Shown: in pieces, positions 4,631-38,535 of the stretch | Numbering within the stretch: the stretch's first letter is position 1 | Layout: each line of letters starts with the position of its first letter | NCBI GenBank assembly: GCA_016199745.1 | Contig: JACQFZ010000048.1 | Span: 186,001-250,000, forward strand | DNA: 64,000 nt | Source of the DNA: Gammaproteobacteria bacterium | GTDB lineage: Bacteria; Pseudomonadota; Gammaproteobacteria; Acidiferrobacterales; Sulfurifustaceae | Reading direction: 5' to 3' | Program-made: the position numbers and the translations under genes | Notes under the pieces: generated by a model | Seen by the model: the letters and a program-made list of their open reading frames with translations, nothing else | Databases searched by the model: none | What the model was told of the DNA's origin: nothing

Positions 4631-5305
4631 TCAGTGCATGATCTCGATCGGCGGCCGTTGCGGAGCAATAATCATATGAATCAACTCAACAAGATCCGAC
4701 AATACCTGCACCTCTTTTGGAAAACCATGAGTGCCGCAAGCGATACCGACAAACATAACGCCAGCGTCGATCGCACCGCTATAGTCGGTCATCGCATCGC
4801 CGACCATCAGCGTACGCGATGCGGCGATCTCATAGCTTTGGATAAAACCTCTAATAATCTCGCCCTTCTTCCGCGGTGCACCGGCAACCCCGGCAAAAAA
4901 GCGTGTCATGTTGCGCCGGGCAATAATGCGTATCAGCTCTTCTTCCGGTGTGCCTGATGCGACGAATAACGGCACCCGCACGTGCAATGTCTCGAGCAGT
5001 TCTTGTGCGCCGCCAACCCAAGGCGCCGCTACCACCGCATCCTCGACCAAATCGGAAAAACGTTGCGCCAGCTCCGCTTCTTCGTGCGCCGGCAACGGTT
5101 TGTGCAGAAAGGTTTGATGAAAATGCCGGAACTTCTCGTAGCGCGAAACACCACCATGCGCCAGGTGCCAAGCCACCACTTGATCAACAATTTGCGAACC
5201 ATAAGGCGCATATAGCGCGGCAAATGCTTGCGTTTTAACGTCAACCGATTCCACCAAAACACCGTCGAAATCGAATACGACGGCGTCGCAATGCAACTCC
5301 TTCAT
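4631..5305 (-). CDS. HAD-superfamily phosphatase (copy 1, ulosonate-associated)
   Basis: A 224-residue haloacid dehalogenase-type phosphohydrolase. Motif I is FDFDGVLVES with the nucleophile Asp12 and Asp14. Motif II is VASGTP, and the metal-binding motif is LMVGDAMTDYSGA. A helical cap lies between motifs I and II. The start is the ATG at 5305, which overlaps the upstream stop as ATGA; a longer frame to 5335 would overlap the epimerase more. It is similar in length and layout to the HAD protein at 15485-16183. Because a CMP-ulosonate synthetase-like gene and an aldolase lie close by, a plausible role is removing phosphate from an ulosonic acid phosphate, as KdsC or Neu5Ac-9-phosphatase do. 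That is inference. Confidence 0.85.
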   Translation of the reverse strand: MKELHCDAVVFDFDGVLVESVDVKTQAFAALYAPYGSQIVDQVVAWHLAHGGVSRYEKFRHFHQTFLHKPLPAHEEAELAQRFSDLVEDAVVAAPWVGGAQELLETLHVRVPLFVASGTPEEELIRIIARRNMTRFFAGVAGAPRKKGEIIRGFIQSYEIAASRTLMVGDAMTDYSGAIDAGVMFVGIACGTHGFPKEVQVLSDLVELIHMIIAPQRPPIEIMH

Positions 5306-6231
5306 ACTTTGGTCGAACGATTGGTCACCAACCAATCGTCCTCGGGATGGGCATCGCTACTGTGCTCGTGCAACTCCGCCAAGCAATCGAGCAGTCCCTG
5401 TCCAAGGTCAACATAGTCGTTGGCTACCAGCTTATGACCGACCTTCGGATGGAACGCGTACGGTGTCATGACGTAGTGTGCCGCATCATGCTCGCCGCTG
5501 AATGTCAGCTTCACGCCTTTCGGGATCATCTCGGAAATCATCTGCATCAAATTCTTGACCGGCATCCGCTCCTGACCGGTTAGCACCAAGTGGCGATTGG
5601 CGTATTCGTCAGCGAGTATCTGCACGCTCAAACGGGCGGCATCACGTACGTGAATGTACTCGCGCATCGCCTCAGGGCTACCATGATAAGTGATAGTGTG
5701 CTGTTCGAGTGCCTGCTTCAGCAAACGATAAATGCCATTACGCCGATCGGCACGACGCCCGTAAAGCGATCCATAACGCAAAATCGAGAACGCCAAACCG
5801 TAGCGATCGTTGTAGGCTTCGACAAATCGTTCGGCCGATTGCTTACTGGCGCGATAGAACGAACCGGATTCGGAATAGACGTACACCGAGCTGGCAAATA
5901 CAAAACGTTTAGCGTTGGTCAAACGTGCCGCTTCGAGCGCGTGCAGATTGCCGATGATATTGGCGTTGGCGGTGTCGAGCGGGCGATCACGCGCTTCGTC
6001 AATGTCGGCAATACCGGCGAAGTTGTATACATAAGCGCAGTCTTGAGCAGCGCGGACGACGGCGTCACGATCCATAATATCGCCGACGTGCATCTCTTGG
6101 TCCTTGCGCAGATAAGGCGACGCGGTCCGATCGTAGATGCGCACGCGATAGCCGGCATCGGAAAGCGCGTCGGCCACGTGGCTACCGAGAAATCCGCTAC
6201 CGCCAAAAACTACTACCGTCTTGGCTGTCAT
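5302..6231 (-). CDS. NAD-dependent epimerase/dehydratase (extended SDR)
   Basis: A 309-residue extended SDR. The nucleotide-binding motif is FGGSGFLGSH (9-18), DIMDR is at 51-55, and the catalytic pair is in YRASK (Tyr126, Lys130) after FASS. EYIHVRDAA is typical of UDP-glucose 4-epimerase-like enzymes. The ATG at 6231 is preferred over the GTG at 6240 because AGGTGG lies five bases before it. The gene follows the 2-hydroxyacid dehydrogenase gene by 12 bases and overlaps the HAD gene by ATGA, so the three are translationally linked. It probably modifies the sugar precursor made by this module; the substrate is unknown. Confidence 0.85.
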   Translation of the reverse strand: MTAKTVVVFGGSGFLGSHVADALSDAGYRVRIYDRTASPYLRKDQEMHVGDIMDRDAVVRAAQDCAYVYNFAGIADIDEARDRPLDTANANIIGNLHALEAARLTNAKRFVFASSVYVYSESGSFYRASKQSAERFVEAYNDRYGLAFSILRYGSLYGRRADRRNGIYRLLKQALEQHTITYHGSPEAMREYIHVRDAARLSVQILADEYANRHLVLTGQERMPVKNLMQMISEMIPKGVKLTFSGEHDAAHYVMTPYAFHPKVGHKLVANDYVDLGQGLLDCLAELHEHSSDAHPEDDWLVTNRSTKV

Positions 6232-6243
6232 AGTCACCACCTG

Positions 6244-7182
6244 CTAGTTTGGTTGCGTCGTCAGCCCGCAAGCGACGAGACCACGCAGCAGATTATCCGC
6301 TGCTTCACATTCCATAATATTCCGACACTCCTCGGCATACGAACCCATGTGCGCTGTCAACACTACCTGCGGCAACGCCGCTAGCGGGCCGGCGTACGGT
6401 TCGCGCTCGAAGGTGTCGATTGCCGCGCCGGCAAGCCGACCGGACTGCAGCGCCGCCAGCAATGCCGCCTCATCCACTAAACCGCCGCGCGAAAGGTTAA
6501 CAACGACGGCGTCCGATCGCATCTTGGCGATCCGATCGGCGTCGATCAGGTACTTACCTTCCTCGCAAGGTACATGTAGGGTAATCACGTCGGCACTGGC
6601 GATAAGCGTATCGAGGTCCACCCACTCCACTGTTTGATCGGAAATCTGAGGAATCATGTCGGTAACCAGCAACCGACAGCCGAACGGCTTAAGCAGGCTG
6701 GCAACGCGACGGCCGATCCGGCCGTAACCGACGATACCGACGGTGCGCGCTGCCAACAATCGGCCCATAAGCGGCTTCCAAATACCGGCGCGAAGTTGCT
6801 GATCGGCCGCCGGAATCTTGCGCAACAGTGCGAGTATTGTGCCGAGGGTCAATTCCGCCACCGCAGCGCTCGGTGCATCCGGCGTGTTCAATACGGTGAT
6901 GCCGAGCTCCTTTGCCGCCGTCAGGTCGACGTTATCCAGACCAATGCCACAACGCGAAATCACGCGCAGGTTCTTAGCACCCTGCAACACCCGCCGTGTC
7001 AGCGGCTCGACGCCGGCCAATAGACCGACGACGTCGTCACGCAACAACTCGGCGATTTCATCTTCGCTCAGCCGTCGACCATGGGGATTCGCAACGACTT
7101 GAATACCGGAAGCGCGCAAGTCGGTCAGTGCCTGCGTATCCCGATTGGAAAAAGAGGAAGTTGAAATTAAAACCTTTGGCAC
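6244..7182 (-). CDS. D-isomer-specific 2-hydroxyacid dehydrogenase (phosphoglycerate dehydrogenase-like)
   Basis: A 312-residue NAD-dependent dehydrogenase. The Rossmann motif is GYGRIG (152-157). The catalytic residues are Arg232 in SRGG, Glu261 in FEREP and His278 in AHMGS. It lacks the C-terminal ACT domain of the housekeeping SerA at 55041-56228 and is not closely similar to it, so a role in serine synthesis is unlikely. The frame is open to a TTG at 7254, but I chose the GTG at 7182: GGGAG lies eight bases upstream and conservation starts at MPKVLIS. It is the first gene of the third minus-strand block, with a divergent regulatory region upstream. It may oxidise a sugar-derived 2-hydroxy acid or reduce a 2-keto acid. 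Confidence 0.85.
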   Translation of the reverse strand: MPKVLISTSSFSNRDTQALTDLRASGIQVVANPHGRRLSEDEIAELLRDDVVGLLAGVEPLTRRVLQGAKNLRVISRCGIGLDNVDLTAAKELGITVLNTPDAPSAAVAELTLGTILALLRKIPAADQQLRAGIWKPLMGRLLAARTVGIVGYGRIGRRVASLLKPFGCRLLVTDMIPQISDQTVEWVDLDTLIASADVITLHVPCEEGKYLIDADRIAKMRSDAVVVNLSRGGLVDEAALLAALQSGRLAGAAIDTFEREPYAGPLAALPQVVLTAHMGSYAEECRNIMECEAADNLLRGLVACGLTTQPN

Positions 7183-7296
7183 GCTACCGTCTCCCAAATA
7201 TTCTGCGCGGCCTTCCACCCTTATCGACTCGCTGCAAAGATGACGTTCACTCAAAACGCGCTCGATCGGAACGCGCCGCGGCGAGTATATATCGAT

Positions 7297-7304
7297 CTAC
7301 CGCC
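7297..7304 (-). promoter_or_regulatory. Possible ops-like element (GGCGGTAG core)
   Basis: On the minus strand this reads GGCGGTAG followed by ATC. The first eight bases match the RfaH recruitment site exactly, but the T usually found at position 11 is C here. It is intergenic and lies 115 bases upstream of the GTG of the 2-hydroxyacid dehydrogenase gene, at the head of the block that runs to position 1. The setting therefore fits a second RfaH entry point, but eight matching bases alone are weak. Confidence 0.35.
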
Positions 7305-7309
7305 TCAGC

Positions 7310-7330
7310 CCACTGCAAGACTTGCAGTGG
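7310..7330. promoter_or_regulatory. 21-bp perfect palindrome, candidate operator in a divergent region
   Basis: Arms CCACTGCAAG and CTTGCAGTGG flank a single central A. The site lies between the divergent 2-hydroxyacid dehydrogenase gene (minus, start 7182) and aldolase gene (plus, start 7377). An odd-centred, perfectly symmetrical 10-bp half-site is what a dimeric repressor or activator would bind. With a one-base centre it is a poor RNA hairpin, so a protein site is more likely. No regulator gene is adjacent, and I do not recognise the motif. Confidence 0.4.
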
Positions 7331-7376
7331 TTCGGCTTGCTAAGATGCGCGCATTGCAACCAGCGCCCGGCAATCA

Positions 7377-8174
7377 ATGGACAACGACTCCCTCAAGCTA
7401 AAGTTGCGGCAAAACCGTTTGACGATCGGTTCGTGGATTACGCTCGCACATCCGGCTATCGCCGAAATCATGGCCCGCTCTGGTTTCGACTGGCTGGCGG
7501 TCGATTTGGAACACAGCGTCATCACCATCCGCGAGGCCGAAGAACTCATCCGCGTCATTGCCTTGCATCGCGTAGCGCCGCTAGTGCGCCTGACCAGTAA
7601 CGACGTCGACCAAATCAAGCGCGTCATGGACGCCGGCGCTCACGGCGTAATCGTACCGATGGTCAACTCGCGCGCCGATGCCGAGCGCGCCGTCGCTGCC
7701 GTGTACTATCCGCCGCGCGGACACCGCGGCGTCGGCCTTGCCCGCGCCCAAGGCTACGGCACTGCCTTCGCCGACTATCGCACCTGGCTCGAGCAAGAGG
7801 CGGTCGTCATCGTCCAAATCGAACACATTGCCGCCGTACAAGACCTCGAAGCGATCCTCAGCACGCCCGGCGTCGACGGTTTCATCATGGGCCCGTACGA
7901 CCTATCAGCGTCGATGAACATCCCCGGTCAGTTCGACAACCCGCGCCTGCTCGACGCCATCGAGCAAGTGCGCAGCAAAGGCTTGGCAATGGGCAAACCG
8001 GGCGGCCTGCACGTGGTCGAGCCGTGCCCCGACCAGCTACGCGAACACATCGCCCGCGGCTTCCGCTTTTTGGCCTACAGTCTCGACACGCGCATGCTCG
8101 ACGTCGCCTGCCGTAACGGTCTCGCCGAATGTCGCGCGGCCGCGCCCAAGTCATCCGGAGAAACACATCCATGA
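7377..8174 (+). CDS. HpcH/HpaI-family class II pyruvate aldolase
   Basis: A 265-residue TIM-barrel aldolase of the HpcH/HpaI family, which adds pyruvate to aldehydes to give 4-hydroxy-2-keto acids. Expected active-site residues are visible: His46 in DLEHS, Arg71 in LVRLTSND, metal ligand Glu149 in VQIEH and Asp175 in GPYDLSASM. Length is normal for the family. It is divergent from the minus-strand locus, and its stop overlaps the start of the KdsB-like gene as ATGA. That coupling suggests the product is a 3-deoxy-2-ulosonic acid that is then activated with CMP. Degradative members of the family act on aromatic-pathway intermediates, but none of those genes are nearby. Confidence 0.85.
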   Translation: MDNDSLKLKLRQNRLTIGSWITLAHPAIAEIMARSGFDWLAVDLEHSVITIREAEELIRVIALHRVAPLVRLTSNDVDQIKRVMDAGAHGVIVPMVNSRADAERAVAAVYYPPRGHRGVGLARAQGYGTAFADYRTWLEQEAVVIVQIEHIAAVQDLEAILSTPGVDGFIMGPYDLSASMNIPGQFDNPRLLDAIEQVRSKGLAMGKPGGLHVVEPCPDQLREHIARGFRFLAYSLDTRMLDVACRNGLAECRAAAPKSSGETHP

Positions 8175-8953
8175 GCACGATCGGTATTATCCCCGCCCGC
8201 ATGGCCTCCAGCCGCTTTCCCGGCAAGCCACTGGCGTTGATCCACGGCGTACCGATGATTGGCCACGTCTATTTTCGCTGCAAGATGAGCCGCGCGCTCG
8301 ACGAGGTCTACATCGCTACGTGCGACGAAGAAATCCGTCAATACGCGCGCTCGATCGGCGCACCGTGCGTGATGACCGCCAATACCCACGAACGCGCCAC
8401 CGACCGCACTGCCGAAGCGATGCTCAAAATCGAAGCCGATACCGGCAAGCGCACCGACATCGTCGTCATGATCCAAGGCGACGAGCCAATGACGCGGCCG
8501 GAAATGATCGATGAAGCGATCGCCCCGTTCCGCACCGATCGCAACATCAATGTCGTCAACCTAATGGCACACATCGACAATGTCGAGGATTTTGAGGATC
8601 CGAACGAAGTCAAAGTGGTGATCGATCTCAAAGGCGACGCCCTGTATTTTTCGCGCGAAGCGATTCCGTCGCGTAAAAAAGGCGTGACTAAGGTGCCAAT
8701 GCTGAAACAGGTTTGCATCATCCCGTTTCGGCGCGACTACTTGCTGCGCTTCAACAGCCTATCGCCGACACCGCTTGAAGTGATCGAATCAGTCGACATG
8801 ATGCGCATCCTCGAACACGGCGAAAAAGTACGAATGATCATGACAAACGCACAGACCGTCAGCGTCGACACGCCGGAAGATCACGCTTATGTCAACGAGT
8901 TGATGCGGACCGATTCGCTGATGCCGAGCTATTCCAACAAGCGCACCGGCTGA
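8171..8953 (+). CDS. KdsB-like CMP-ulosonate cytidylyltransferase
   Basis: A 260-residue relative of 3-deoxy-manno-octulosonate cytidylyltransferase. The CTP-binding start is IGIIPARMASSRFPGKPL, followed by TDRTAEAM and IQGDEP (metal/substrate loop). The ending VDTPEDHAYV is typical. It is somewhat divergent and longer than housekeeping KdsB (about 250 residues), and its insertion in a surface locus behind an aldolase suggests a different ulosonic acid. The start is the ATG at 8171, overlapping the aldolase stop; the frame extends upstream to 8129 but without conserved sequence, and GGAG lies 12 bases before this ATG. If this is the only kdsB in the genome, it could instead serve lipid A-core synthesis. 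Confidence 0.8.
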   Translation: MSTIGIIPARMASSRFPGKPLALIHGVPMIGHVYFRCKMSRALDEVYIATCDEEIRQYARSIGAPCVMTANTHERATDRTAEAMLKIEADTGKRTDIVVMIQGDEPMTRPEMIDEAIAPFRTDRNINVVNLMAHIDNVEDFEDPNEVKVVIDLKGDALYFSREAIPSRKKGVTKVPMLKQVCIIPFRRDYLLRFNSLSPTPLEVIESVDMMRILEHGEKVRMIMTNAQTVSVDTPEDHAYVNELMRTDSLMPSYSNKRTG

Positions 8954-8975: not shown

Positions 8976-11003
8976 CTAGTCGTTCCGCCGACGGTCGGTC
9001 ATGCCACCGCTTTTCGCGTTAGCCAGTACACTACCGACTATCGTGCAAAAGCGTTCTTCTGGATCGAGCGCTAGATCGTCGAACATCGCCTCGATAGCGC
9101 CCGGCCAGTGCGGACGCGCCTCGGCGAACGGAGTTTCTTCTTCGTACAGCCGTCGCAATGCTTGTCGTAGCGAGACAACATCATCCGCCTTTATTACCGC
9201 CGGGCCCACCGCATTCAGCGATGACGCGGTAAAACTGAAGATGGTGTCGTTGACAAACATCACTACCGGCGTTCCCAGTGCAATCGCCTCTAGCCCTACT
9301 GTCGAGCCTGTCATTATCAATGCCCGCGCCCGGCCGATGCAGTCGTAAAGGTTAGCGGTAGCCGGCACCACCTGCCCGTTGATGGCGCTCGTCTTCTGCT
9401 GTAAACGGTGCAAGAATTCCGGGCCATGATCATTGGTTGGATGACCCTTGATCTCGAGCACAAACCGGTGCTCGGATCCAACCAACGCTTCAGCCAGTAC
9501 CGCGGCGAAACTCAGCGCCTCGTTGTAATCCAGCGATACCGGTATCAACAACGGATACTTGCCGCCCTCGTTTGCTTTCGCAGGTGCCTGACCGCGTTCG
9601 CGCCAGCGCGACCGTAACTGCTGATACCGAAGCGGGCCGACGATGTGCACCTGGTCGGCGCTGAATCCATTTTTGAGCATCAATTGCGCGGCGTAACTAC
9701 CGGTCGTGACGATATGATCCGGTACCGGCATCGACGCCACTGCATCAGTGGTACGACGACCGATTTCGCCCGGCGCAAACACATGCGAAAGATAATCTTC
9801 ACCGATGGAAGAATGTTGGTAGCCGACCGTCGTCGTGCGTCGCGTTCCCAACCCGAGGAGCAGCGCTCGCTCGAACGGTTGGAACTCGATTCGAAACAAC
9901 AATAGATCGAAATCCGGTAATTTTTTGACGGCGTGGCGCAACAACAGATTACGAAACAGCTCACGATCGCTCGTCGTCCTGAGCAATTCCTCGCGGACCA
10001 ACGACTCGATCGTAAAGCCGGCAAACGCTCGATCTTCCGGCGGCAACTGCCAGTGCAGCGCGCGCCAACAATAAATCGGTGCGGCACCGAGTAATCTGCC
10101 GCTGGCGGTCAGGCTGCACAGCGATTGCAAGCACAAAAAATCATTCGATCTGGCGAGCGTTCGTATCCTAACCCGATCCTTGAACACGCTCAGCAATCGT
10201 ACTCGCAGCCAGACGACATGGCGCACAGCAAATCCGGCAGCCGACATTCCCTGCGGCAAGCCCTGATAAAACACTTCACGCCGATTTTCCGCGTCCCACG
10301 CGTTGCGCCACCAAATCGGAAAAAAACTAAAGAGCGCGACTTGCCGATTCGACATAGACGACGACTTCGACTCAGCGGCTGTTCCTACCAACAACTTAAG
10401 CAGGACAAGCTCGGCCAACGTGCCAAACGCCAACGCTACCGCACGACATGGATAAGTGATTTTATCCGCCGCTCCCTGGAACGCTCCTTTAAATTTCCTA
10501 AACCATGGACGCCTGCTGATAATCCTGACCTTGTACTGCGGGCCTAGACTATCCGCTATTACCTTGGCCAGTTTCGCATCTGCTAGCGCGATCCACACCT
10601 CCGCTGGTCGGTGTACGTCACATGCCGCGCGTACCAACGCCAACGAATAGAGCCGAGCAATCAATGTGCCGCGAAAGACGCTCTTTTCCGACATGTCGGT
10701 CAACCACCAACCGGCCGGATCTCCGGGGAATACCGAATCGGCGAGCGAATACCCGCTTGGACCTCGACGAAAAGGAAGCTGCGCGTAATAGCGCGGCACG
10801 AACTCTTTTAGAACTTGCTTCGCTCTTACCGCCAGCGGCGCAAACGGCAGAAACATGTCGGGTGCGAGATCGCGGCCGTGGATCTTGGCCTCGTCGATCA
10901 ATGCTTGCGAAGGATAACGCAGAGGCAACAACCGCATGTGACCGTCGTCGGTGCCGGCGTCCTTCAGCTCACGCCGGTATCCATCGAGGACAACTAATCG
11001 CAC
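8976..11003 (-). CDS. Large surface-carbohydrate biosynthesis protein with C-terminal GT-B-like domain
   Basis: A 675-residue cytoplasmic protein. Residues 1-190 form an unassigned domain, a hydrophobic stretch (about 187-209) follows, and the C-terminal half looks like a GT-B glycosyltransferase. That half has VLEIKGHP, an HP-type motif, and MTGSTVGLEAIALGTPVVMF, a nucleotide-binding S/T motif seen in KpsS/KpsC Kdo transferases, polysialyltransferases and related proteins. A plausible role is transfer of a CMP-ulosonic acid or assembly of the glycan. The start is a GTG at 11003, seven bases after the methyltransferase stop, with only a weak ribosome binding site. It converges with the KdsB-like gene 22 bases away. 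Function beyond the fold is uncertain. Confidence 0.7.
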   Translation of the reverse strand: MRLVVLDGYRRELKDAGTDDGHMRLLPLRYPSQALIDEAKIHGRDLAPDMFLPFAPLAVRAKQVLKEFVPRYYAQLPFRRGPSGYSLADSVFPGDPAGWWLTDMSEKSVFRGTLIARLYSLALVRAACDVHRPAEVWIALADAKLAKVIADSLGPQYKVRIISRRPWFRKFKGAFQGAADKITYPCRAVALAFGTLAELVLLKLLVGTAAESKSSSMSNRQVALFSFFPIWWRNAWDAENRREVFYQGLPQGMSAAGFAVRHVVWLRVRLLSVFKDRVRIRTLARSNDFLCLQSLCSLTASGRLLGAAPIYCWRALHWQLPPEDRAFAGFTIESLVREELLRTTSDRELFRNLLLRHAVKKLPDFDLLLFRIEFQPFERALLLGLGTRRTTTVGYQHSSIGEDYLSHVFAPGEIGRRTTDAVASMPVPDHIVTTGSYAAQLMLKNGFSADQVHIVGPLRYQQLRSRWRERGQAPAKANEGGKYPLLIPVSLDYNEALSFAAVLAEALVGSEHRFVLEIKGHPTNDHGPEFLHRLQQKTSAINGQVVPATANLYDCIGRARALIMTGSTVGLEAIALGTPVVMFVNDTIFSFTASSLNAVGPAVIKADDVVSLRQALRRLYEEETPFAEARPHWPGAIEAMFDDLALDPEERFCTIVGSVLANAKSGGMTDRRRND

Positions 11004-11010
11004 GGGTTAA

Positions 11011-17712: not shown

Positions 17713-17736
17713 TAGCGTTTCCCTGTCTTCAGTGGA

Positions 17737-21705: not shown

Positions 21706-21709
21706 CCCA

Positions 21710-29642: not shown

Positions 29643-30227
29643 TTATCGTGATTGCGCCCGGCGCGCAACCAACATGCGCACTACCGCTGGCTGGCCGTCC
29701 CGCTGATAGCGGTCGGCCACATCTTTCTCAAGAACATAACCGGCTTTCATAAATGCCTTCCACGAAGAAACGTTGTCGACATAAGTGCCTGCCAAAATCG
29801 ACTGTATGCCAAGCCTATCGAACGCCCATTGCGTCACGGAACCAATCGCCGCCGCACCTATTGCTTGCCCCCAGACACGTTTGTCAAAAACACAAATGCC
29901 GATATCAGCCGTTCGATCCGTCAGATTGACGTGATGCAACCGTACGGTACCGCAATGACGCGCGCTGTTCTTATGAAAGATGCCGAACAACACCGCGTCC
30001 GGCGCCAGCTCGTCGATGCGCACGAATGCGCGGACGGTGTCATCGGTCTGCGTCTTTTGGCGCACCGCGACCATGTATCGATTGACTTCGGGATCGTTGA
30101 GCCCGTCGATGTAGCCGGCATGTACGTCATCGACCGTCAGCGACCAAAGATACCCCTGCGGGATATTCAGCGTCACGCCGCGTTTGAATACCGGCGTCAG
30201 TAACCTGCCGCTACCCATAGAACTCAT
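29643..30227 (-). CDS. GNAT-family N-acetyltransferase
   Basis: A 194-residue GNAT protein of the RimJ/RimL type: DDVHAGYIDGLNDPEVNRYM at the N-terminus, CGTVRLHHVN, ADIGICVFDKRVWGQAIGAAA (acetyl-CoA loop) and TYVDNVSSWKAFMKAGYVLE. It is not a PseH match; a separate pseH lies at 21154. The ATG at 30227 overlaps the pseI stop (ATGA). A sugar-modifying acetyl- or acyltransferase for a second amino group is likely, perhaps giving a differently acylated pseudaminic acid. Acyl donor and acceptor are not known. Confidence 0.8.
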   Translation of the reverse strand: MSSMGSGRLLTPVFKRGVTLNIPQGYLWSLTVDDVHAGYIDGLNDPEVNRYMVAVRQKTQTDDTVRAFVRIDELAPDAVLFGIFHKNSARHCGTVRLHHVNLTDRTADIGICVFDKRVWGQAIGAAAIGSVTQWAFDRLGIQSILAGTYVDNVSSWKAFMKAGYVLEKDVADRYQRDGQPAVVRMLVARRAQSR

Positions 30228-31273: not shown

Positions 31274-32361
31274 TGCGGTGACTGTCTCAGTCGATCGGTC
31301 TTACGGTCGGAGAATCGTTCGAGCAGCGCGCTGACCGCGAGCGGCTGGCCGGTGGTGCTGAATCCATCCATGATCTGTATCGCGCGCTGACTCATGGCCA
31401 TTAGTTTTTTTGGATGACGAATGGCGTCGTCGATATCGGCGGCCAGGGCGTCGACAGTCAACTTGTCCGCCCAACCTAAATAGCGCAGCGCACCGATATT
31501 GCCGGTCTCGCGCGTCGATCGTTCCTGGTTATGAGCGAACACCACCGTCAACGTTGGCAATCCCAACAGGCAACGCTCCCACATGGTGGCACCGCCGGCG
31601 CCGATACCGAGATCGGCCGCCGCCATCAACTGGGCCATGTTGTCGGCTTGCACGTGCAGCCGCAGATTGCGCTGCGGCGCGCATAACACTTCAATCATGC
31701 GGCGATGCGGGTTGGTCGCGCCGATCACGACATCCGCCGTGATATCGCTACGCCCGGCCTTCGCCAGCGCCGCGATCGCCTTGGCGGTGATGTTCTGCGG
31801 ATCGGCGCCGCCAAAAAAAATCAAAATATTTTTGACCGAGCCGTCGCGCGATCGTAGTCGTTGACGCACTTCGCGAAACTCCCGGCGCAACAACGCGTAA
31901 CGCGGACCGAGCAGCTTCAGGCAATTCACCGGCAAGCAATCGTTATAACGCTGTGCCATTGCGTCGTAATAATTCTGGTCCAGTAAAATATCGCAATCAT
32001 GGGGCCGATCCGCGAGATCGTCGATTGCCATGATGCCGTTGACGTAACGCCGCAGCACCGACTCCCAGCGCACATCGAGCGCGTAGTGGTCGACGACCAA
32101 ACCGTTGAACGTTTTACCGTTGAGTATTGCCGCCGTTTCCGCCGCATCCGCCTGCCAGGCGCGTGCAGTTGCCGACATTTCCTGAACCGCGTAGCCACGA
32201 GTGCGAATCAGGTCGGACAGATTCCCCGGTAACGTCCGGCAGGCGAAACTAGCATTTGCACCGGCCTCGCGCAGTCCATCGGCCAACGTCAAACAACGCA
32301 TCGCGTGGCCAGTGCCGATTTCGAGCGAGGCATCAACGCGAATCAGGACGTTCAACGGCAC
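31270..32361 (-). CDS. pseG: UDP-2,4-diacetamido-2,4,6-trideoxy-beta-L-altropyranose hydrolase
   Basis: A 363-residue GT-B-like hydrolase releasing UDP before the PseI step. The N-terminus RVDASLEIGTGHAMRCLTLAD carries the likely catalytic His19 (the counterpart of His17 in Campylobacter PseG). DHYALDVRWE, DLADRPHDCDILLDQNYY, FFGGADPQN and GAGGATMWERCLLGLP are family blocks. It is somewhat longer than the Campylobacter enzyme. The start is a GTG at 32361, four codons' length after the aminotransferase stop, with AGAAG upstream. It overlaps pseI. Confidence 0.92.
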   Translation of the reverse strand: MPLNVLIRVDASLEIGTGHAMRCLTLADGLREAGANASFACRTLPGNLSDLIRTRGYAVQEMSATARAWQADAAETAAILNGKTFNGLVVDHYALDVRWESVLRRYVNGIMAIDDLADRPHDCDILLDQNYYDAMAQRYNDCLPVNCLKLLGPRYALLRREFREVRQRLRSRDGSVKNILIFFGGADPQNITAKAIAALAKAGRSDITADVVIGATNPHRRMIEVLCAPQRNLRLHVQADNMAQLMAAADLGIGAGGATMWERCLLGLPTLTVVFAHNQERSTRETGNIGALRYLGWADKLTVDALAADIDDAIRHPKKLMAMSQRAIQIMDGFSTTGQPLAVSALLERFSDRKTDRLRQSPQ

Positions 32362-32364
32362 GCG

Positions 32365-33699
32365 CTAAATCTTCTTGCGAAACACCGGCCGTACCGACCG
32401 GCCGATCAACAGTCCGTCGCAGCTACCCTTTTCGATCGCTTGGCCATAAACCTGGCACGCCCGATCGAATGCGGCGACCACCTGATCGAGCTCGGCCTGC
32501 TGATGCGACCAGGTCGGATAGAACACGCCCTGGAACAGCACGCCGTGCGCAATCATTTCTTGCATCATCAACGTGCGGAAAGTGTCATCGGCATTGCCTT
32601 GCGGGTTGCGACAAACGAGCGCTAACAGACACGGGTCGCCGATGAGGCTCAAGTAACGCGTCAGCCCGTGGCGCGTCACGACTTCGTTCAAGCGCTGTTG
32701 CCACGAGCGACCGCGCGCCCAATTGTCCTTGATCATGTCGTGCCGCTGGAACTCAGCGATGGTGGCGATGAGCGCCGCCAGACCGATGGTCTCGGCGCCG
32801 TGCGTGGTCGAGATCAAAAATAATTTGTCGTCACCTTCGCGGCGAATGCCGCCGAGCTCCATGATGTCGGCGCGACCGGTGAGCGCACACGCGGAAAAGC
32901 CGTTGGCGATGCCTTTGCCCCAGGTAGCGAGATCGGGCCGCACGCCGAAATAATCCTGCGCGCCTTTCAGCCCCCACTTAAAGCCGGAGATCATTTCGTC
33001 GAGGATGTAGACCACGCCGTGTTTGCGGCAGAGCTCGCCGGTCTTGCGCAGAAAATCGTCGCGCGGCGCGTCGAACTTCACCGGCTCCATGATTAGGCAG
33101 GCGATGTCGTGCTTCGGATCGGCGAACAACGCCTCGACCGACGTCAAGTCGTTGTAGCTGAAACACGCCGTCAGTTCGCGCGTTTCTTCCGGAATACCGC
33201 GGTCACACGCAGTGGTGACGATGAACCAATCGTCGTAGCTGAAAAAATTGTGTTCGCGGCACAGCGCTACGCGATTACGGCCGGTATAGGCGCGCGCCAA
33301 CTTGACCGCAGCGGTAGTAACCGTCGAGCCGTTCTTGGCGAATTTCACCATGTCGCCCGACTGCACTGTCTCCAAAAATTTGGCCGCAGCCTCGAGCTCG
33401 ATCGTCGCCGGCCGCTGGAAGTTCGTGCCCTTGAATGCGGCGTCGCTGACGGCTTGCGCCACCGGCTCGTAGCCGTGGCCGATGCTGACCGAGGTCAGGC
33501 CCATACTGCAGTCGACATATTCGTTGCCGTCGACGTCCCAAACATGCGCACCTTTGCCGTGGGTGATGGCCGCGGGCGCATTGATCGGGAACTGATCGTC
33601 GCCCTTCGAATACGTATGCGCCCCGCCTGGCACGATGTCGTGAATACGTTGCGAGAACTGGCGCGAGCGATCGAATTGAGAAATGCGTTTCAGCGTCAT
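32365..33699 (-). CDS. Class III PLP-dependent aminotransferase (glutamate-1-semialdehyde aminomutase-like)
   Basis: A 444-residue fold-type I aminotransferase. GGAHTYSKGDDQFP, HVWDVDGNEYVD, AKNGSTVTTAAVKLARAYTGR, ILDEMISGF (Asp234) and the Schiff-base lysine in TWGKGIANGFS (Lys262) are visible. It is not HemL: the sequence context and many positions differ. In this locus it follows the SpsF-like gene by seven bases and probably aminates a keto-sugar or a CMP-linked intermediate. Similar aminotransferase plus cytidylyltransferase plus NeuB cassettes occur in spore-coat and flagellin glycan loci. Substrate unknown. Confidence 0.85.
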   Translation of the reverse strand: MTLKRISQFDRSRQFSQRIHDIVPGGAHTYSKGDDQFPINAPAAITHGKGAHVWDVDGNEYVDCSMGLTSVSIGHGYEPVAQAVSDAAFKGTNFQRPATIELEAAAKFLETVQSGDMVKFAKNGSTVTTAAVKLARAYTGRNRVALCREHNFFSYDDWFIVTTACDRGIPEETRELTACFSYNDLTSVEALFADPKHDIACLIMEPVKFDAPRDDFLRKTGELCRKHGVVYILDEMISGFKWGLKGAQDYFGVRPDLATWGKGIANGFSACALTGRADIMELGGIRREGDDKLFLISTTHGAETIGLAALIATIAEFQRHDMIKDNWARGRSWQQRLNEVVTRHGLTRYLSLIGDPCLLALVCRNPQGNADDTFRTLMMQEMIAHGVLFQGVFYPTWSHQQAELDQVVAAFDRACQVYGQAIEKGSCDGLLIGRSVRPVFRKKI

Positions 33700-33706
33700 G
33701 ACGGGG

Positions 33707-34450
33707 TCAACCGATGTTCCAAGTGGGCTCCGGCACCACGAACGGTGCCACCAGCGCTTTCAAATCCGGACGCGAATCGAGAAAGGTGGCGATCTGCGCC
33801 ACCGACACCAGCGGCATGGAGCTGCGACACGCCTTGGCGATCTCGCGGCAGACGATGAGGTCCTCGGGATAATCCACCGTCACCCGCAGGTCCATGCGCT
33901 GTTGGTCGACCGGCGGCAACACCACCTCGATCTTGAACTCGTCGACATGATGGCGCGCGTAGTTCGAACAAAACTCCGAGCGATCCTTGGCCGAGCCGTT
34001 GGCGTGCGAGCGCTCCAGCGCCGCCAGCGAATAGATTTCGAAATTGATACCTTCCGGCAGTCGATCGCAAACGGTGATGTCGTTGCCATTGCGCTTATGT
34101 CGCGTCCATACCTCGGTCAGCAAGTCATAGGCGAACCACGGGCACTCGGTGGTGACACGAAACACGTCGGTGGCGCGACCCATGCGGCCGCATTGAATCA
34201 GGCGCATCAATACATCTTGCGGATCACCCCAGATGTATCCGATACCGTACTCGTGCGCCTTATCGACGAAGATGTCGTTGGCCGCGCCTTCGGAAATACC
34301 AAGGACGATTTCGTCGATGATGCCGACGCGGCGGATAGCGGCGACGATCTGGTCGAGGATCGACGTGTTGTCGAGCAGATTTTGCAGCGGCTTGCCGAAC
34401 AACCGGGAACCATTGTTGCGGCAAGCGAGCGCGGCGACGAGTCGGCGCAT
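33707..34450 (-). CDS. SpsF-like cytidylyltransferase-family protein
   Basis: A 247-residue protein of the KdsB/SpsF nucleotidyltransferase fold. The usual N-terminal motif A-R-x-G-S-x-R-L-P-G-K is altered to ACRNNGSRLFGKPL (9-22), keeping S-R-L-x-G-K. GDPQDVLMRL and FRVTTECPWF follow as in SpsF, and LRVTVDYPEDL near 190-200 supports CTP use. The ATG at 34450 follows the NeuB-like gene by 12 bases. It would activate the product of that synthase, or serve as PseF since no other pse-adjacent cytidylyltransferase exists. Confidence 0.75.
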   Translation of the reverse strand: MRRLVAALACRNNGSRLFGKPLQNLLDNTSILDQIVAAIRRVGIIDEIVLGISEGAANDIFVDKAHEYGIGYIWGDPQDVLMRLIQCGRMGRATDVFRVTTECPWFAYDLLTEVWTRHKRNGNDITVCDRLPEGINFEIYSLAALERSHANGSAKDRSEFCSNYARHHVDEFKIEVVLPPVDQQRMDLRVTVDYPEDLIVCREIAKACRSSMPLVSVAQIATFLDSRPDLKALVAPFVVPEPTWNIG

Positions 34451-34462
34451 CGTTAGTCTCTC

Positions 34463-35476
34463 TTATTCTAAGTGCGATTCAAGAATTGCCGCACCTTCGG
34501 CGAGCGCGGTCTTGGTGCGTTTGCCGTACAGCTGACGCACGTCGCTCAGAAACGTCGCCGAGGCGGTACGCTTCAAGCCGACATGCTCGGGACGGATCAC
34601 AGTACCGGCAGCTAACGGCTTCACCGCGACCACGTGCTTGCGAATAGCGTCGCGATAGCGGCGCTCGGCCTCATGCATGCCGAGATCCGGCCGCGTGCCG
34701 TCGACCGTGCCGATAGCAGTACCGCACTCGCGCATGCGCGCGGCGAACTCAGCGAACTCGGACGGATCGAGCGCTGATTCGTGGTCTTCGAATTTCATCA
34801 GGCGCGACAACGTGAGGTGCTTCTCGATAACGACGGCGCCGGCACCAATCGCGACCGCCGGTAGCGCCGTGCACGCCGCGGTTTCGATCGGCGCATGATC
34901 GTGGAAGCCTTGGCGCAGCGGCGCGTCAGCGTTGCCGGAACCGAAACGGCACGCGAAGTGGCCGATGCGCGCCAGCTGATTCGCCTCGAACGGCGTCGGA
35001 TAACCTTGAAAGCCGTGCATCAACACGATCGGCTTCGGACCAATCGTTTCGATGGCTTCGGCTACCTCCTGCTCGACACAGCCGCCGACGGAGAGAATGA
35101 CCTCCGGCAACTTCGCCTTAGCGACTTGTTGCAGCAGACCGATGTTCGACATATCGGTGCTGTGAATCTTGATGCCGGCGACACCGAGTGTCTGCGCCAG
35201 CGCCAGCCCGCGCACGCCGAAAACATCGAACAGCAATCCGATGTTGCGCTCACGCGTCTCTTGCGCGACTTCTTGCCAAGCGCTATCCGGCATTTCCAGC
35301 GAGCGGAACAAATCGAAGTAGCGATAGTCCGGCGTCGCCAACTCGTCGGCGTAGACCAATTGAAACTTAATGCCATCGGCGCCGGCGGCGGCAGCCGCGC
35401 GGACCAGCAATAACGTTTGCGGCAGCTTGCCCTCGAAGCCCTGGGCTGCCTCCGCCAAAATTTTTATCTGACTCAT
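34463..35476 (-). CDS. Divergent NeuB-family synthase
   Basis: A 337-residue NeuB-like TIM barrel plus SAF domain. It keeps GADGIKFQLVYADEL, IKIHSTDMSNIGLL, GIxGYP-like GFQGYPTPFEAN, VVIEKHLTLSR and a C-terminal SAF domain (VVAVKPLAAGTVIRPEHVGLK). The normally conserved N-terminal N-H-x-G (seen in PseI and in the cupin fusion) is replaced by GFEG in LAEAAQGFEGK, so its substrate or chemistry may differ. It lies between the aldo/keto reductase and SpsF-like genes. The ATG at 35476 is 13 bases after the upstream stop. It is the third NeuB paralogue in this locus. Confidence 0.8.
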   Translation of the reverse strand: MSQIKILAEAAQGFEGKLPQTLLLVRAAAAAGADGIKFQLVYADELATPDYRYFDLFRSLEMPDSAWQEVAQETRERNIGLLFDVFGVRGLALAQTLGVAGIKIHSTDMSNIGLLQQVAKAKLPEVILSVGGCVEQEVAEAIETIGPKPIVLMHGFQGYPTPFEANQLARIGHFACRFGSGNADAPLRQGFHDHAPIETAACTALPAVAIGAGAVVIEKHLTLSRLMKFEDHESALDPSEFAEFAARMRECGTAIGTVDGTRPDLGMHEAERRYRDAIRKHVVAVKPLAAGTVIRPEHVGLKRTASATFLSDVRQLYGKRTKTALAEGAAILESHLE

Positions 35477-35489
35477 CAGCTCTCCGTCA

Positions 35490-36374
35490 TCAGGCGATCT
35501 GCCAACGGGACGGATTGATCAATCCTTCGTCAGCGATCGTGAATTCGTCAAAAAACGTGTAATCGGGAAGCGGTTGCGCCAATGCATCGACGATCTGCAC
35601 CAGCTCGACCTGCGAAGTCACACCAACCAAGGCGATGTCGACCTCGGGAACCGACGCCACGAACGCGAGCGCACCTTGCAAACGCGATAAGCCGGCGTCG
35701 GCAAGCGCGCGGAAGTACGCACGTAGCCGGTCACGGTAGGGATCGAAGTAGCGATGGATCTTTGCGTCATCCATCAGCAACAGGCCCTGCAGGAACGCGG
35801 AACGCGCATGAACCTCGACACCCGCCCGCTGCAATGCGGCTAAATGCCCGCCACTGATAAATCGGCGGTCACAAACATTCAGCGGTAACTGCACGAGATC
35901 GACTGGGTAGCGCTCGAGCACATCGTCGAGCTGGCGCGTGTCGTACACCGATACGCCGATCTTTGCTACCTGCCCGCTGGCGCGAAGCCGCAGCATCTCC
36001 GCGTGCAACGCTTCGCCGCCGTCTACCAACAAGTCGTCGGCATGGTGCACTAATAAACCGTAGACCTGCTCCGCGCCGAGGCGCGTGAGCGACTGCTCGA
36101 AACCGACGCGCAACGCGTGCGCATCGTGGTCCGTCAACCGTGCCGTTCGAAACTGCAGCGTCTTGGTGACGACACGGAAGTGCTGATCGGGTGGAATCGT
36201 TCGACCCAATACGGCTTCGCTATCGCCATAGAGATTGGCCGTATCCAACACGGAAATTTCCGCGCGCCCGGCGGTTGCAAGAATTTTTTCAACTTCCGCT
36301 TCCGGCACCCGACCACCGGCGTTAGATACACCGTAGTCCAAACCGAACTGAACGGTACCGAGACCGAGCTTCAC
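35490..36374 (-). CDS. Aldo/keto reductase
   Basis: A 294-residue aldo/keto reductase. LGLGTVQFGLDYGVSN starts the barrel, VLDTANLYGDSEAVLG has the catalytic Tyr and the DTA motif, VVTKTL the Lys, and LLVHHADDLL the His region. The start is the GTG at 36374, overlapping the pseC stop as GTGA; the frame runs to 36692 but only as overlap with pseC and with low-complexity Arg/Pro-rich sequence. It probably reduces a keto-sugar or sugar aldehyde for the neighbouring NeuB-like pathway. Confidence 0.85.
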   Translation of the reverse strand: MKLGLGTVQFGLDYGVSNAGGRVPEAEVEKILATAGRAEISVLDTANLYGDSEAVLGRTIPPDQHFRVVTKTLQFRTARLTDHDAHALRVGFEQSLTRLGAEQVYGLLVHHADDLLVDGGEALHAEMLRLRASGQVAKIGVSVYDTRQLDDVLERYPVDLVQLPLNVCDRRFISGGHLAALQRAGVEVHARSAFLQGLLLMDDAKIHRYFDPYRDRLRAYFRALADAGLSRLQGALAFVASVPEVDIALVGVTSQVELVQIVDALAQPLPDYTFFDEFTIADEGLINPSRWQIA

Positions 36375-37543
36375 TGCGTCAACGCCGCCAGGCGGTCGAT
36401 AATCGACCGTTGTTGTTCGGCGGTTAGCCCGAAATAAAGTGGGATACTGAGCGCCTCGCGGTAGTACTGCTCGGTCGCTGCCAGGTCGTCGGTCGGCTGG
36501 CCGGCACGACGATAATAAGGATGAAAATGCACCGGAATGTAGTGCACCTGCGAGCCGATTCCGTGTTCCGCCAGCTGCCACATCAATTTTGCACGCGACG
36601 TCTTCAACGCCGCGAAATCGATGCGCAGTACATATAGGTGATGCGAGCTGAGGTCGCGGCCGTGTGTTTGCCCGGGGCGGACGCCGCGCCACGAGCGGAA
36701 CGTCTCATCATAGACACGCACCAGCTCGCGCCGGCGGGCAACAAACCGGTCGAGCTTGCGCATCTGCGACAGCGCCAGCGCGCTTTGAATATCGGTGATG
36801 CGATAGTTGTAGCCGAGTTCCTGCATCTCGTAATACCACGGGTTCGGCGCGCCGTCGGTGAACCCCAAGTCCTTACATAAGGTCGGATCGTCACCCTTGT
36901 TGATGCCGTGGCTACGTAAGCGAATCAAGCGGCGATAGTAGTTTTCGTTATTGGTAACGATCATTCCGCCTTCGCCGGCGGCGATGTGTTTGACCGGATG
37001 GAACGAGAACACCGTCATGTCCGAGTGCGCGCCGTTACCGACGCGGCCACCGTCCGGATAGCTCGCACCCAATGCATGCGACGCGTCTTCGATGACCACC
37101 GCCCGGTGTTGCTTCGCAACCGCGCGAATCGCCGGCATATCGCACGGCAAGCCGGCGAAGTGCACCGGCACGATCGCGCGTACACGCGACTGACCTTGGC
37201 AACGCAGCGCCAACGCCGTCGGCGACATATTAAGTGTCTGCGGATCGATATCGGCGAACTGCACGGTGGCACCAACGAAGGCGCCGCAATTGGCGCTGGC
37301 GACGAAGGTGTTGGGCGTCGTGATCAACGTATCACCAGGGCCGAGATCGGCGACCATGGCGGCGAGGTGTAACGCCGACGTGCCGCTCGACACCGCCACC
37401 GCGTAACGCGCACCGACATAGTCAGCCACCGCGCGCTCGAACTCGCCGACCTTGGGGCCCTGCGTGAGCGCGCCGTGGCGCAATACTTCGGCGACCGCCT
37501 GAATGTCGTCCTCGTCGATATAGTGCCGGCCGTAAGGGATCAT
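36371..37543 (-). CDS. pseC: UDP-4-amino-4,6-dideoxy-N-acetyl-beta-L-altrosamine transaminase
   Basis: A 390-residue DegT/DnrJ/EryC1 aminotransferase matching PseC. MIPYGRHYIDEDDIQAV, SSGTSALHLA, TPNTFVASAN, IEDASHALGA and the PLP lysine in FHPVKHIAAGEGG (Lys185) are visible. It aminates the keto sugar made by PseB. The ATG at 37543 overlaps the pseB stop (ATGA). The frame extends upstream to 37684 within pseB and is not conserved there. LGYNYRITDIQSALALSQ and HYIPVHFHPYY are typical of PseC/LegC-type enzymes, and adjacency to pseB fixes the assignment. Confidence 0.92.
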   Translation of the reverse strand: MIPYGRHYIDEDDIQAVAEVLRHGALTQGPKVGEFERAVADYVGARYAVAVSSGTSALHLAAMVADLGPGDTLITTPNTFVASANCGAFVGATVQFADIDPQTLNMSPTALALRCQGQSRVRAIVPVHFAGLPCDMPAIRAVAKQHRAVVIEDASHALGASYPDGGRVGNGAHSDMTVFSFHPVKHIAAGEGGMIVTNNENYYRRLIRLRSHGINKGDDPTLCKDLGFTDGAPNPWYYEMQELGYNYRITDIQSALALSQMRKLDRFVARRRELVRVYDETFRSWRGVRPGQTHGRDLSSHHLYVLRIDFAALKTSRAKLMWQLAEHGIGSQVHYIPVHFHPYYRRAGQPTDDLAATEQYYREALSIPLYFGLTAEQQRSIIDRLAALTQ

Positions 37544-38535
37544 AGTTCGATGGTTTCTTTTCTGAGGAGCTCGGCCAACTGCTCGCGCGTCATCCATACG
37601 GAATTGTGATCGCTGCTGTATTGGAAATCTTCCGGCACGATGCCGGCCTTGGTGTCGCGTAGATATGCCGCCCGGTCCCACCACGTCGCCGCCGGCTGGA
37701 TCACGTAGTGATCGCTGAACTCGGCGGTATGCGCGGCGTCATCCTGCGTGATCATGACCTCGTGCAGCTTCTCGCCCGGACGAATGCCGATGATCTTGGT
37801 GCTGCACTCCGGCGCGACGACCTTCGCCACGTCCATGATGTTCATGCTGGGGATCTTCGGCACGAATATTTCGCCGCCATGCATGCGCTCAAGACTATCG
37901 ATCACGAATTGCACGCCCTGTTTGAGCGTGATCCAAAAACGTGTCATGCGCGCATCGGTGATCGGCAACACGCCTTCCTTGCGCTTCTGCATGAAGAACG
38001 GAATGACGCTGCCGCGCGAGCCGATGACGTTACCGTAACGTACCACCGAGAAGTGCGTGCGGTGGCGGCCAGACAAGGCGTTGGCGGCGATGAACAATTT
38101 GTCCGAGCACAACTTAGTGGCGCCGTACAAATTCGCCGGGTTCGCCGCCTTGTCGGTACTCAAGGCGACCACGCGCTCGACGCCTTGATCGATACAGACG
38201 TCGATAACGTTCTCGGCGCCGATGATGTTGGTCTTAATCGCCTCCATCGGGTTGTATTCCGACGCCGGCACTTGTTTCATGGCGGCGGCGTGGATCACCA
38301 CCTGCACGCCGTCGAACGCCCGGTACAGCCGGGTCTTGTCGCGCACATCGCCCAAAAAGTAACGCAGCAACGGCGATTGAATATGCTGCTGCATTTCAAA
38401 TTGCTTCAGCTCATCGCGACTGAAAATCACCAAACGCGACGGCTGGTGATGGTCCAACACGTATTTGACGAAACGCTTACCGAACGAGCCGGTGGCGCCG
38501 GTAATCAAGACCGATTTTCCGTCCAAAATTGACAT
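37540..38535 (-). CDS. pseB: UDP-N-acetylglucosamine 4,6-dehydratase (C5-inverting)
   Basis: A 331-residue short SDR dehydratase/epimerase starting the pseudaminic acid pathway from UDP-GlcNAc. ITGATGSFGKRFV (11-23) binds NADP, FSRDELKQFEMQ is a PseB mark, AAAMKQVPASEYNPMEAIKTN and LSTDKAANPANLYGATK contain the catalytic Lys/Asp/Tyr region, and TRFWITLKQGVQFV follows. The length and lack of membrane segments separate it from the long WbpM type. The ATG at 38535 follows the reductase stop directly (TAAATG). Confidence 0.93.
   Translation of the reverse strand: MSILDGKSVLITGATGSFGKRFVKYVLDHHQPSRLVIFSRDELKQFEMQQHIQSPLLRYFLGDVRDKTRLYRAFDGVQVVIHAAAMKQVPASEYNPMEAIKTNIIGAENVIDVCIDQGVERVVALSTDKAANPANLYGATKLCSDKLFIAANALSGRHRTHFSVVRYGNVIGSRGSVIPFFMQKRKEGVLPITDARMTRFWITLKQGVQFVIDSLERMHGGEIFVPKIPSMNIMDVAKVVAPECSTKIIGIRPGEKLHEVMITQDDAAHTAEFSDHYVIQPAATWWDRAAYLRDTKAGIVPEDFQYSSDHNSVWMTREQLAELLRKETIEL

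Follow-up and report, generated by a model that had tools for sequence, protein, structure and literature searches.

The window analysed here is a 64,000-nucleotide stretch of DNA from a Gammaproteobacteria bacterium of the family Sulfurifustaceae (GCA_016199745.1, contig JACQFZ010000048.1, positions 186,001 to 250,000), and it contains a surface-glycan locus which, on a slight balance of probability, is supplied with up to three different 2-ulosonic acids activated with cytidine monophosphate (CMP) from three gene cassettes. Cassette A (29643-38535) is the known pathway of pseudaminic acid (Pse), cassette B (14772-18828) varies a known type of route, and cassette C (4631-8953) most likely represents a not yet described route of the aldolase type, leading to a CMP-ulosonic acid distinct from 3-deoxy-D-manno-octulosonic acid (Kdo). 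The gene content given in the first-pass annotation of this DNA was recovered (Table 1; genes are named here by their first coordinate): three NeuB-family synthases (16180, 30224, and 34463), a pyruvate aldolase coupled to a KdsB-like gene (7377-8953), three unlike cytidylyltransferases (KdsB-like 8171, NeuA/PseF-like 14772, and SpsF/spiroSPASM-like 33707), and two HAD phosphatases (4631-5335 and 15485-16213). Its proposal that Pse is accompanied by further ulosonic acids is supported for at least one other CMP-activated acid, and one of these products is probably undescribed. However, its count of up to four separate routes was not supported: three cytidylyltransferases are present, and the SpsF-like enzyme among them probably activates Pse; three CMP-ulosonate routes is the best count and is better supported than four.

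The contig is 310 kb long and the genome around the window 4.26 Mb. The glycan locus extends between about 38.5 and 4.6 kb. Nearly all of its genes lie on the minus strand, and most neighbours overlap or are separated by short gaps (the two larger gaps are 296 and 652 bases); the exception on the plus strand is the aldolase/KdsB pair. A search of the whole genome with PF03102 (NeuB) gave three matches, every one inside the window.

Cassette C and its recurrence

The aldolase stop codon and the ATG of the KdsB-like gene at 8171 share the letters ATGA, an overlap of 4 bp, and this pair forms one cassette with the genes at 4631-7254 for an HAD phosphatase, a short-chain dehydrogenase/reductase (SDR), and a 2-hydroxyacid dehydrogenase. 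In the aldolase, H46, R71, and E149, which together with D43 and D175 we take to be the active site, were conserved in 33/33 aligned sequences and the latter two residues in 32/33. R256, E285, and H302 of the dehydrogenase were kept in at least 95% of 43 sequences; its weaker matches included GhrB and a probable 2-ketogluconate reductase. Elsewhere in the genome a Kdo synthase and a second KdsB are encoded (C42, C70), which makes the window KdsB an additional copy; the possibility that it was the housekeeping copy was rejected.

The KdsB-like sequences of the cassettes differ from the canonical enzyme in a regular way. R8, D98, and D233 (numbering of KdsB1 of the same genome) were kept in all 34 sequences, and the substitutions were H179Q and S72R in 33 sequences each and E208D and Q209M in 32 each; the conserved residues presumably act on CTP and metal, and the substituted ones presumably contact Kdo. 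In a tree the cassette group separated from the other KdsB rows on a 100/97 branch. The canonical RHIG.YAYR and LEQLR motifs were thus altered in nearly all of the cassette group, while the histidine and LEQLR were present in KdsB1 and in the two best relatives in the PDB, 1gq9 and 3k8d. The window enzyme also failed the equivalog PRK05450.1-1 (178 bits, cut-off 281). Compared with the canonical Kdo pathway (KdsD-KdsA-KdsC-KdsB, WaaA), cassette C shares CMP activation of the KdsB family and an HAD phosphatase, but it has a pyruvate aldolase in place of the synthase dependent on phosphoenolpyruvate (PEP), adds the SDR and the 2-hydroxyacid dehydrogenase, and carries the changed KdsB motifs. In G077 another KdsB homologue lies near cassette C (L066, 12095-12910), and this one has the canonical histidine.

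The first-pass annotation regarded the locus as its strongest candidate for an undescribed system. This is likely for cassette C but not for the crowding of synthases, and cassette C is far more widespread than the locus. At E <= 1e-48 the aldolase was found in 10 of 398 genomes, the window genome included; among the other nine, seven had further cassette genes nearby (L064-L069 and L072), and in G116 and G236 (L070 and L071) no cassette genes stood alongside. Named genomes were scanned with an alignment of five SDRs and two short peptide patterns, and the best 80 loci were kept. L143, L144, L146, and L155 were rejected as true cassette SDR loci since no other cassette genes were seen there, which left 59 loci; in the 21 other loci a further cassette gene occurred only in L153, where the SDR match was partial (51%, residues 9-208). 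These locus counts are not a measure of prevalence, as they are inflated by relatives within Nitrosomonas and Desulfovibrio, and the hidden Markov models of the tally were built from the same loci as were counted, although the loci were chosen by the SDR alone. Within 6 kb, a cytidylyltransferase was present in 49/59 loci (28 KdsB-type and 21 NeuA-type), the HAD in 40, the 2-hydroxyacid dehydrogenase in 38, the aldolase in 31 (29 HpaI and 2 divergent), and a TIGR04326-like gene in 20; three loci (L097, L127, and L141) had no other cassette gene in that range. All 31 aldolase-bearing loci had a cytidylyltransferase, which points to the aldolase as a building step. An alternative tally of 63 loci (four from other searches) within 8 kb gave 44 HAD, 41 2-hydroxyacid dehydrogenase, 32 HpaI, 28 KdsB, and 20 NeuA genes. 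On an Acuticoccus plasmid the aldolase, cytidylyltransferase, 3-phosphoglycerate dehydrogenase (PGDH)-like, HAD, and SDR genes were consecutive. The loci come from many phyla, and among their carriers are Nitrosomonas, Nitrosospira, Desulfovibrio, Bacteroidota, Campylobacterota, Omnitrophota, Anaerolineales, and two archaeal bins, and bins can be contaminated. No description of cassette C was among the matches listed in a literature search limited to non-subscription papers. A MamZ-like magnetosome protein (743.9 bits, above cut-off) lay about 3 kb from the cassette C aldolase of G192 (L065, 4279-6240).

Fourteen carrier genomes, chosen by hand and counting that of the window, were searched for KdsA (curated cut-off 314) and the WaaA domain. 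Both were present in the same four genomes and both were absent from the other ten, i.e., five Nitrosomonadaceae, four Desulfovibrio, and the one-contig genome G161. KdsA matches below the cut-off (about 40-108 bits) occurred in six of these ten and are probably 3-deoxy-D-arabino-heptulosonate 7-phosphate synthases. The cassette KdsB was the sole PF02348 match in two Nitrosomonas genomes (G579 and G580); a second, weaker match was found in Nitrosospira multiformis and Desulfovibrio piger, and five matches in the Desulfovibrio of G583. In passages of a published survey, one lpx gene was given for Nitrosomonas europaea and one was cited for Nitrosospira multiformis (PMC3087551).

The gene adjacent to the aldolase/KdsB pair, 8976, is a candidate transferase of the cassette C product, and the region 8976-12027 probably belongs with the cassette. 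The structure model of the 8976 protein (pLDDT 77.7, pTM 0.82) was GT-B-like with two Rossmann-like domains, and the top rows of the structural comparison were UDP-GlcNAc 2-epimerases and GT-B enzymes at Z 15.8 and lower (7vz6_C, a 2-epimerase of GT-B fold: Z 15.8, 326 residues, 3.9 A). Sialyl-, polysialyl-, and Kdo-transferases were not among the 50 rows listed, which excludes nothing. The model of a Nitrosomonas neighbour gave GT-B-like matches but was too weak (pLDDT 63) and was not used. In N. marina (L089) the cassette operon faces genes for an FkbM methyltransferase and an O-antigen-ligase-like protein, and both functions also lie beside cassette C of the window (13773 and 12055, the latter below its cut-off).

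Cassettes A and B

When the three synthases were compared with the curated NeuB and PseI models their specificities looked unlike, and only 30224 passed a cut-off, as judged by profile scores and not by a tree; among the cytidylyltransferases, the KdsB-like one scored above the cut-off of PRK13368, the NeuA-like one below that of PseF, and the SpsF-like one below that of spiroSPASM. PseB, PseC, PseG, and PseI of cassette A all pass their curated NCBIfam cut-offs and lie in one operon, as expected of the Pse pathway (PseB-C-H-G-I-F). The window differs from that pathway in having the SpsF-like nucleotidyltransferase 33707 in place of a clear PseF, and in adding, inside the same operon, an aldo/keto reductase (AKR), an aminotransferase of the glutamate-1-semialdehyde (GSA) type (PRK06209), and the second NeuB 34463. 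The starts of the AKR and PseC genes lie downstream of the listed open reading frame (ORF) starts, at about 36383 and 37543.

Gene 33707 gave no Pfam family and no PseF match at E <= 0.001, and from its relatives it is probably the CMP-Pse synthetase. Such relatives were found beside pseG/pseH/pseI in Peribacillus and beside pseI in Azospirillum brasilense (L073 and L075); near the third one examined, in Ponticoccus, no pse genes were found. In the Pse cluster of Vibrio B9-25K2 an SpsF-like domain likewise follows PseC together with an AKR and was proposed to be the CMP-Pse activator, in the part of that report considered here (PMC7371886), with the difference that the two are fused there and all genes are separate in the window. 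The placement of legionaminic acid on Bacillus subtilis spores requires spsF, as stated in an excerpt of another study (PMC7439481). In G100 and G160, PseB-PseC-AKR is followed by a single SpsF-like/aminotransferase fusion protein and the second NeuB is absent; such a fusion also occurs in G116, where PseB, PseC, and AKR were not seen in the fetched stretch. The loci with this fusion are L166, L168, and L169, and it follows PseB-PseC-AKR in L166 and L168. Pse genes were absent from the aminotransferase loci L164 and L165. From the co-occurrence and the fusions, the AKR, the SpsF-like enzyme, and the aminotransferase therefore probably act together. With three cytidylyltransferases, of which the SpsF-like one probably activates Pse, the second NeuB is left without a dedicated partner. 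It matched nothing at E <= 1e-45 in the 397 further genomes of the set of 398, its plasmid relatives were 29-33% identical (best 12 of 61), and it is without the N-H pair that all nine other aligned NeuBs have near the N-terminus, the later histidines being kept.

In cassette B a NeuB synthase, an HAD phosphatase, and a CMP transferase stand together. The synthase, 16180, was below the cut-off for both NeuB and PseI and is fused to a cupin that matches D-lyxose isomerase (PF07385; 2y0o, E 4.4e-8) and, more weakly, other cupins; an SAF-like stretch was recognised by eye in the alignment, where Pfam made no call. The cupin could supply the aldose, and the product is perhaps a sugar like 2-keto-3-deoxynonulosonic acid (Kdn). 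Synthase, HAD, and NeuA together follow the logic of the animal-type sialic acid route through a 9-phosphate, as outlined in passages on the phosphorylated route and on a Leptospira NeuB-phosphatase fusion (PMC3438082). In contrast to that route, the synthase of cassette B carries a cupin, a Gfo/Idh oxidoreductase is extra, and no kinase or 2-epimerase was seen in the cassette. G297 (L040) has NeuA, HAD, NeuB-cupin, and Gfo in the same order as the window at 57-60% identity (HAD 37%), and G108 (L039) has Gfo/Idh, a methyltransferase, NeuB-cupin, and HAD on a contig of 14.6 kb on which NeuA was not found. At E <= 1e-40, NeuB-cupin relatives occurred in 13/398 genomes, the window genome counted, ten of them at 43-48% identity, one of which (G116) matched in the NeuB part only. 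A search of 148 genomes from the order to which G297 belongs gave G297 alone, and a scan of named genomes with a single NeuB-cupin query gave no relatives.

A single shared context for all NeuB-cupins was rejected. In L043 a distant NeuB-cupin adjoins an acetolactate-synthase-like enzyme dependent on thiamine pyrophosphate (TPP) and a PgfS-like glycosyltransferase, and in L050 a cupin-less NeuB adjoins a PgfS-like gene; ORFs of about 600-625 aa adjoin NeuB in L044, L045, L046, L048, L049, and L050. By analogy, the arrangement in L043 and L050 may be a broader form of the Shewanella sfmABCDE system of flagellin modification, in which, in the part of the report considered here, a NeuB-family synthase stands with modification genes and sfmB adjoins sfmA (PMC3765264), as the TPP enzyme adjoins the NeuB-cupin in L043. 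Cassette B differs in having HAD and NeuA instead of a TPP enzyme, and no acetolactate-synthase-like gene was found next to the window NeuB among the scanned locus genes.

Alternative explanations

Several observations weigh against the three-cassette scheme and against an acid other than Kdo as the product of cassette C. The window KdsB passes TIGR00466, an equivalog of the Kdo enzyme (174 bits, cut-off 155), and the tree in which the cassette KdsB group separates included only two non-cassette rows, both on long branches. Two further aldolase positions, chosen by inspection, are variable (D76 in 9/33 and Q147 in 21/33 sequences), and the aldolase matches in G184 and G128 were reported with one in-frame stop apiece. 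No recognised aldolase lay within 6 kb in 28/59 SDR loci, so that the aldolase may be a variant step, and the 2-hydroxyacid dehydrogenase was found in none of the eight Desulfovibrio loci with KdsB, aldolase, and HAD. Metagenome bins make up five of the ten genomes without KdsA and WaaA, and one of these bins amounts to only 1.5 Mb. The GT-B fold of 8976 is common and does not indicate the donor, and the second NeuB has no place explained in the scheme. The thiobarbiturate test for Kdo would react with other 3-deoxy-ulosonic acids as well. In the portion of the study considered here, Kdo was reported in the lipopolysaccharide (LPS) of D. desulfuricans by gas chromatography/mass spectrometry and thiobarbiturate, and earlier work suggesting its lack was mentioned, so that its presence in Desulfovibrio is disputed (PMC3354558).

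Given that report, cassette C could make Kdo, in a non-canonical manner: the aldolase would join pyruvate and a D-arabinose-type aldehyde, replacing KdsA where KdsA is absent and giving a second supply for an outer polysaccharide in the window genome. The TIGR00466 score, the absence of KdsA from ten of the fourteen carriers, and the fact that the best-matching aldolase families use or make 2-keto-3-deoxy acids would be in agreement with this. However, we consider it rather unlikely, as the WaaA domain is absent from the same ten genomes, one lpx gene each is reported for N. europaea and Nitrosospira multiformis in the survey passages mentioned above, the KdsB motifs are altered in nearly all of the 34 sequences, and the SDR and the 2-hydroxyacid dehydrogenase are without an evident place in such a route. 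A non-deoxy 2-ulosonic acid formed by oxidation is quite improbable. Here the SDR and a lactonase would give an aldonate, the 2-hydroxyacid dehydrogenase a 2-keto acid, and the HAD and the KdsB/NeuA-like enzyme would complete the CMP-sugar, with the aldolase as a side step or using hydroxypyruvate. The PGDH-like dehydrogenase with its GhrB and 2-ketogluconate reductase matches, the 28 loci without a recognised aldolase, and two unrelated possible lactonases within 6 kb in 24/59 loci (6-phosphogluconolactonase-like in 14 and PF04199 cyclase in 10, never together; e.g., L111 and L137) speak for it; but no such lactonase was seen among the scanned window genes, the Nitrosomonas Pgl gene may be housekeeping, and the cytidylyltransferase accompanies the aldolase in 31/31 loci.

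It is very improbable that Pse is the sole product, with cassettes B and C silent, decaying, or feeding other metabolism. The division of cassette C of the window between both strands could be read in this way, but the frames are open, the catalytic residues are conserved, the genes are coupled, and B and C recur as units elsewhere. The return to four routes, in which the second NeuB, the SpsF-like enzyme, the AKR, and the aminotransferase would together make a separate nonulosonic acid and Pse would use the NeuA 14772, is also a poor prospect. The order AKR-NeuB-nucleotidyltransferase-aminotransferase inside the operon, the best score of 14772 (to PseF), and the Ponticoccus relative without pse genes nearby are in its favour. 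On the other hand, the AKR, nucleotidyltransferase, and aminotransferase occur with PseB/PseC but without a second NeuB in G100 and G160, relatives of the nucleotidyltransferase adjoin pseI in L073 and L075, a relative of 14772 accompanies the NeuB-cupin in L040, and the second NeuB is the one without the N-H pair.

Other genes of the locus and significance

The remaining genes of the locus are given with those of the cassettes in Table 1. Two proteins of the metallo-beta-lactamase fold (PF13483 and PF12706; 3314-4573 and 19738-21057) were observed within the glycan locus, as were five methyltransferases dependent on S-adenosylmethionine (SAM) (11011-12027, 13773-14729, 18912-19841, 23531-24778, and 25701-26609) and one PhyH-type dioxygenase (24803-25666), from which the glycan may be heavily methylated. 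The right flank carries heptose genes and the housekeeping genes for LapB, ribosomal protein S1, cytidylate kinase, AroA, HisC, and GyrA.

Table 1. Positions in the window, strands, and supporting matches of the genes discussed
Feature	Position	Strand	Evidence
HAD-family phosphatase	4631-5335	-	HAD-IA families
Extended SDR, bait for the named-genome scan	5302-6240	-	PF01370 148 bits; 47-62% identical to four cassette homologues
D-2-hydroxyacid dehydrogenase, closest to PGDH	6244-7254	-	PGDH family 229 bits, below cut-off 454; PDB 1wwk E 4.6e-60
HpaI/GarL-type class II pyruvate aldolase	7377-8174	+	PF03328; below every equivalog cut-off
KdsB-like cytidylyltransferase	8171-8953	+	PRK13368 325 bits, above cut-off 255
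Candidate glycosyltransferase for cassette C product, TIGR04326-related	8976-11003	-	71.9 bits, cut-off 250; distant relative only
SAM methyltransferase, recurrent beside cassette C	11011-12027	-	PF13489; relatives in L065, L066, L068, L069
O-antigen ligase/polymerase-like protein	12055-13476	-	PF04932 26.3 bits, below 31.7 cut-off
FkbM methyltransferase	13773-14729	-	TIGR01444 76.6 bits, above cut-off 37.7
NeuA/PseF-like CMP-nonulosonate cytidylyltransferase	14772-15488	-	PseF 136 bits, below 205.7; PDB 6ifd E 4.9e-34; 60% identical in L040
HAD phosphatase	15485-16213	-	PF13419; homologues adjoin NeuB-cupin in L039, L040
NeuB synthase fused to lyxose-isomerase-like cupin	16180-17712	-	PF03102 + PF07883 + PF07385; PDB 3g8r E 2.9e-88
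Gfo/Idh/MocA oxidoreductase	17737-18828	-	PF01408; 63% (L039), 58% (L040) identical near NeuB-cupin
MsbA/PglK-like ABC exporter	21710-23518	-	PglK 303 bits, MsbA 257 bits; both below cut-off
BFO_1060-like candidate glycosyltransferase	26641-28065	-	25 bits, cut-off 200; 29% relative adjoins cassette B in L040
PFTS polysaccharide biosynthesis protein	28065-29642	-	TIGR04417 113 bits, above cut-off 100
GNAT acetyltransferase, weakly PseH-like	29643-30242	-	PseH 25 bits, cut-off 93; PF13302
PseI pseudaminic acid synthase	30224-31273	-	477.8 bits, above cut-off 340.25
PseG	31270-32361	-	309 bits, above cut-off 153.55
GSA-type aminotransferase (PRK06209)	32365-33699	-	580 bits, above cut-off 486
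SpsF-like nucleotidyltransferase	33707-34450	-	spiroSPASM 38.6 bits, cut-off 250
Second, divergent NeuB with SAF domain	34463-35476	-	PF03102 + PF08666; below cut-off for NeuB and PseI
AKR	35490-36383	-	PF00248; L168 AKR after PseB/PseC 47% identical
PseC	36371-37543	-	487 bits, above cut-off 423.5
PseB	37540-38535	-	541 bits, above cut-off 407.75

The reactions, the products, and the shared use in one glycan that we infer for the three cassettes would be as follows. In cassette A, PseB, PseC, the GNAT protein, PseG, and PseI would make pseudaminic acid, CMP would likely be transferred by the SpsF-like nucleotidyltransferase, and the AKR and aminotransferase probably modify the sugar. In cassette B, the NeuB-cupin would condense PEP with an aldose, probably phosphorylated and perhaps generated by the isomerase-like cupin itself, to give a sialic or Kdn-like acid, from which the HAD would take off the phosphate before the NeuA-like enzyme adds CMP. 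In cassette C, the HpaI-type aldolase would join pyruvate and an aldehyde to give an ulosonic acid other than Kdo, the substrate being provided or tailored by the HAD, the SDR, and the 2-hydroxyacid dehydrogenase; the KdsB-like enzyme would then add CMP and the adjacent GT-B-like 8976 would transfer the product.

CMP-ulosonic acids such as sialic acids, pseudaminic and legionaminic acid, and Kdo determine the charge of the surface, its recognition by the immune system, and the binding of phages, and to our knowledge every natural route to them described so far relies on a PEP-dependent synthase. A more far-reaching proposal, which is offered tentatively and may well not hold in full, is that cassette C is an undescribed and widespread CMP-ulosonate pathway, with a pyruvate aldolase replacing the PEP-dependent synthase, and is the main or only such route of Kdo-less bacteria, for instance Nitrosomonas and Desulfovibrio, replacing Kdo at their cell surface, and that it was captured in the window beside the pseudaminic and Kdn-like routes so that one glycan would contain three classes of ulosonic acid. 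If true, the conserved aldolase-based cassette would be a new route to CMP-ulosonic acids, would account for the KdsB-like genes of ammonia oxidisers that are without Kdo synthase and transferase genes, and would bear on the dispute about Kdo in Desulfovibrio.

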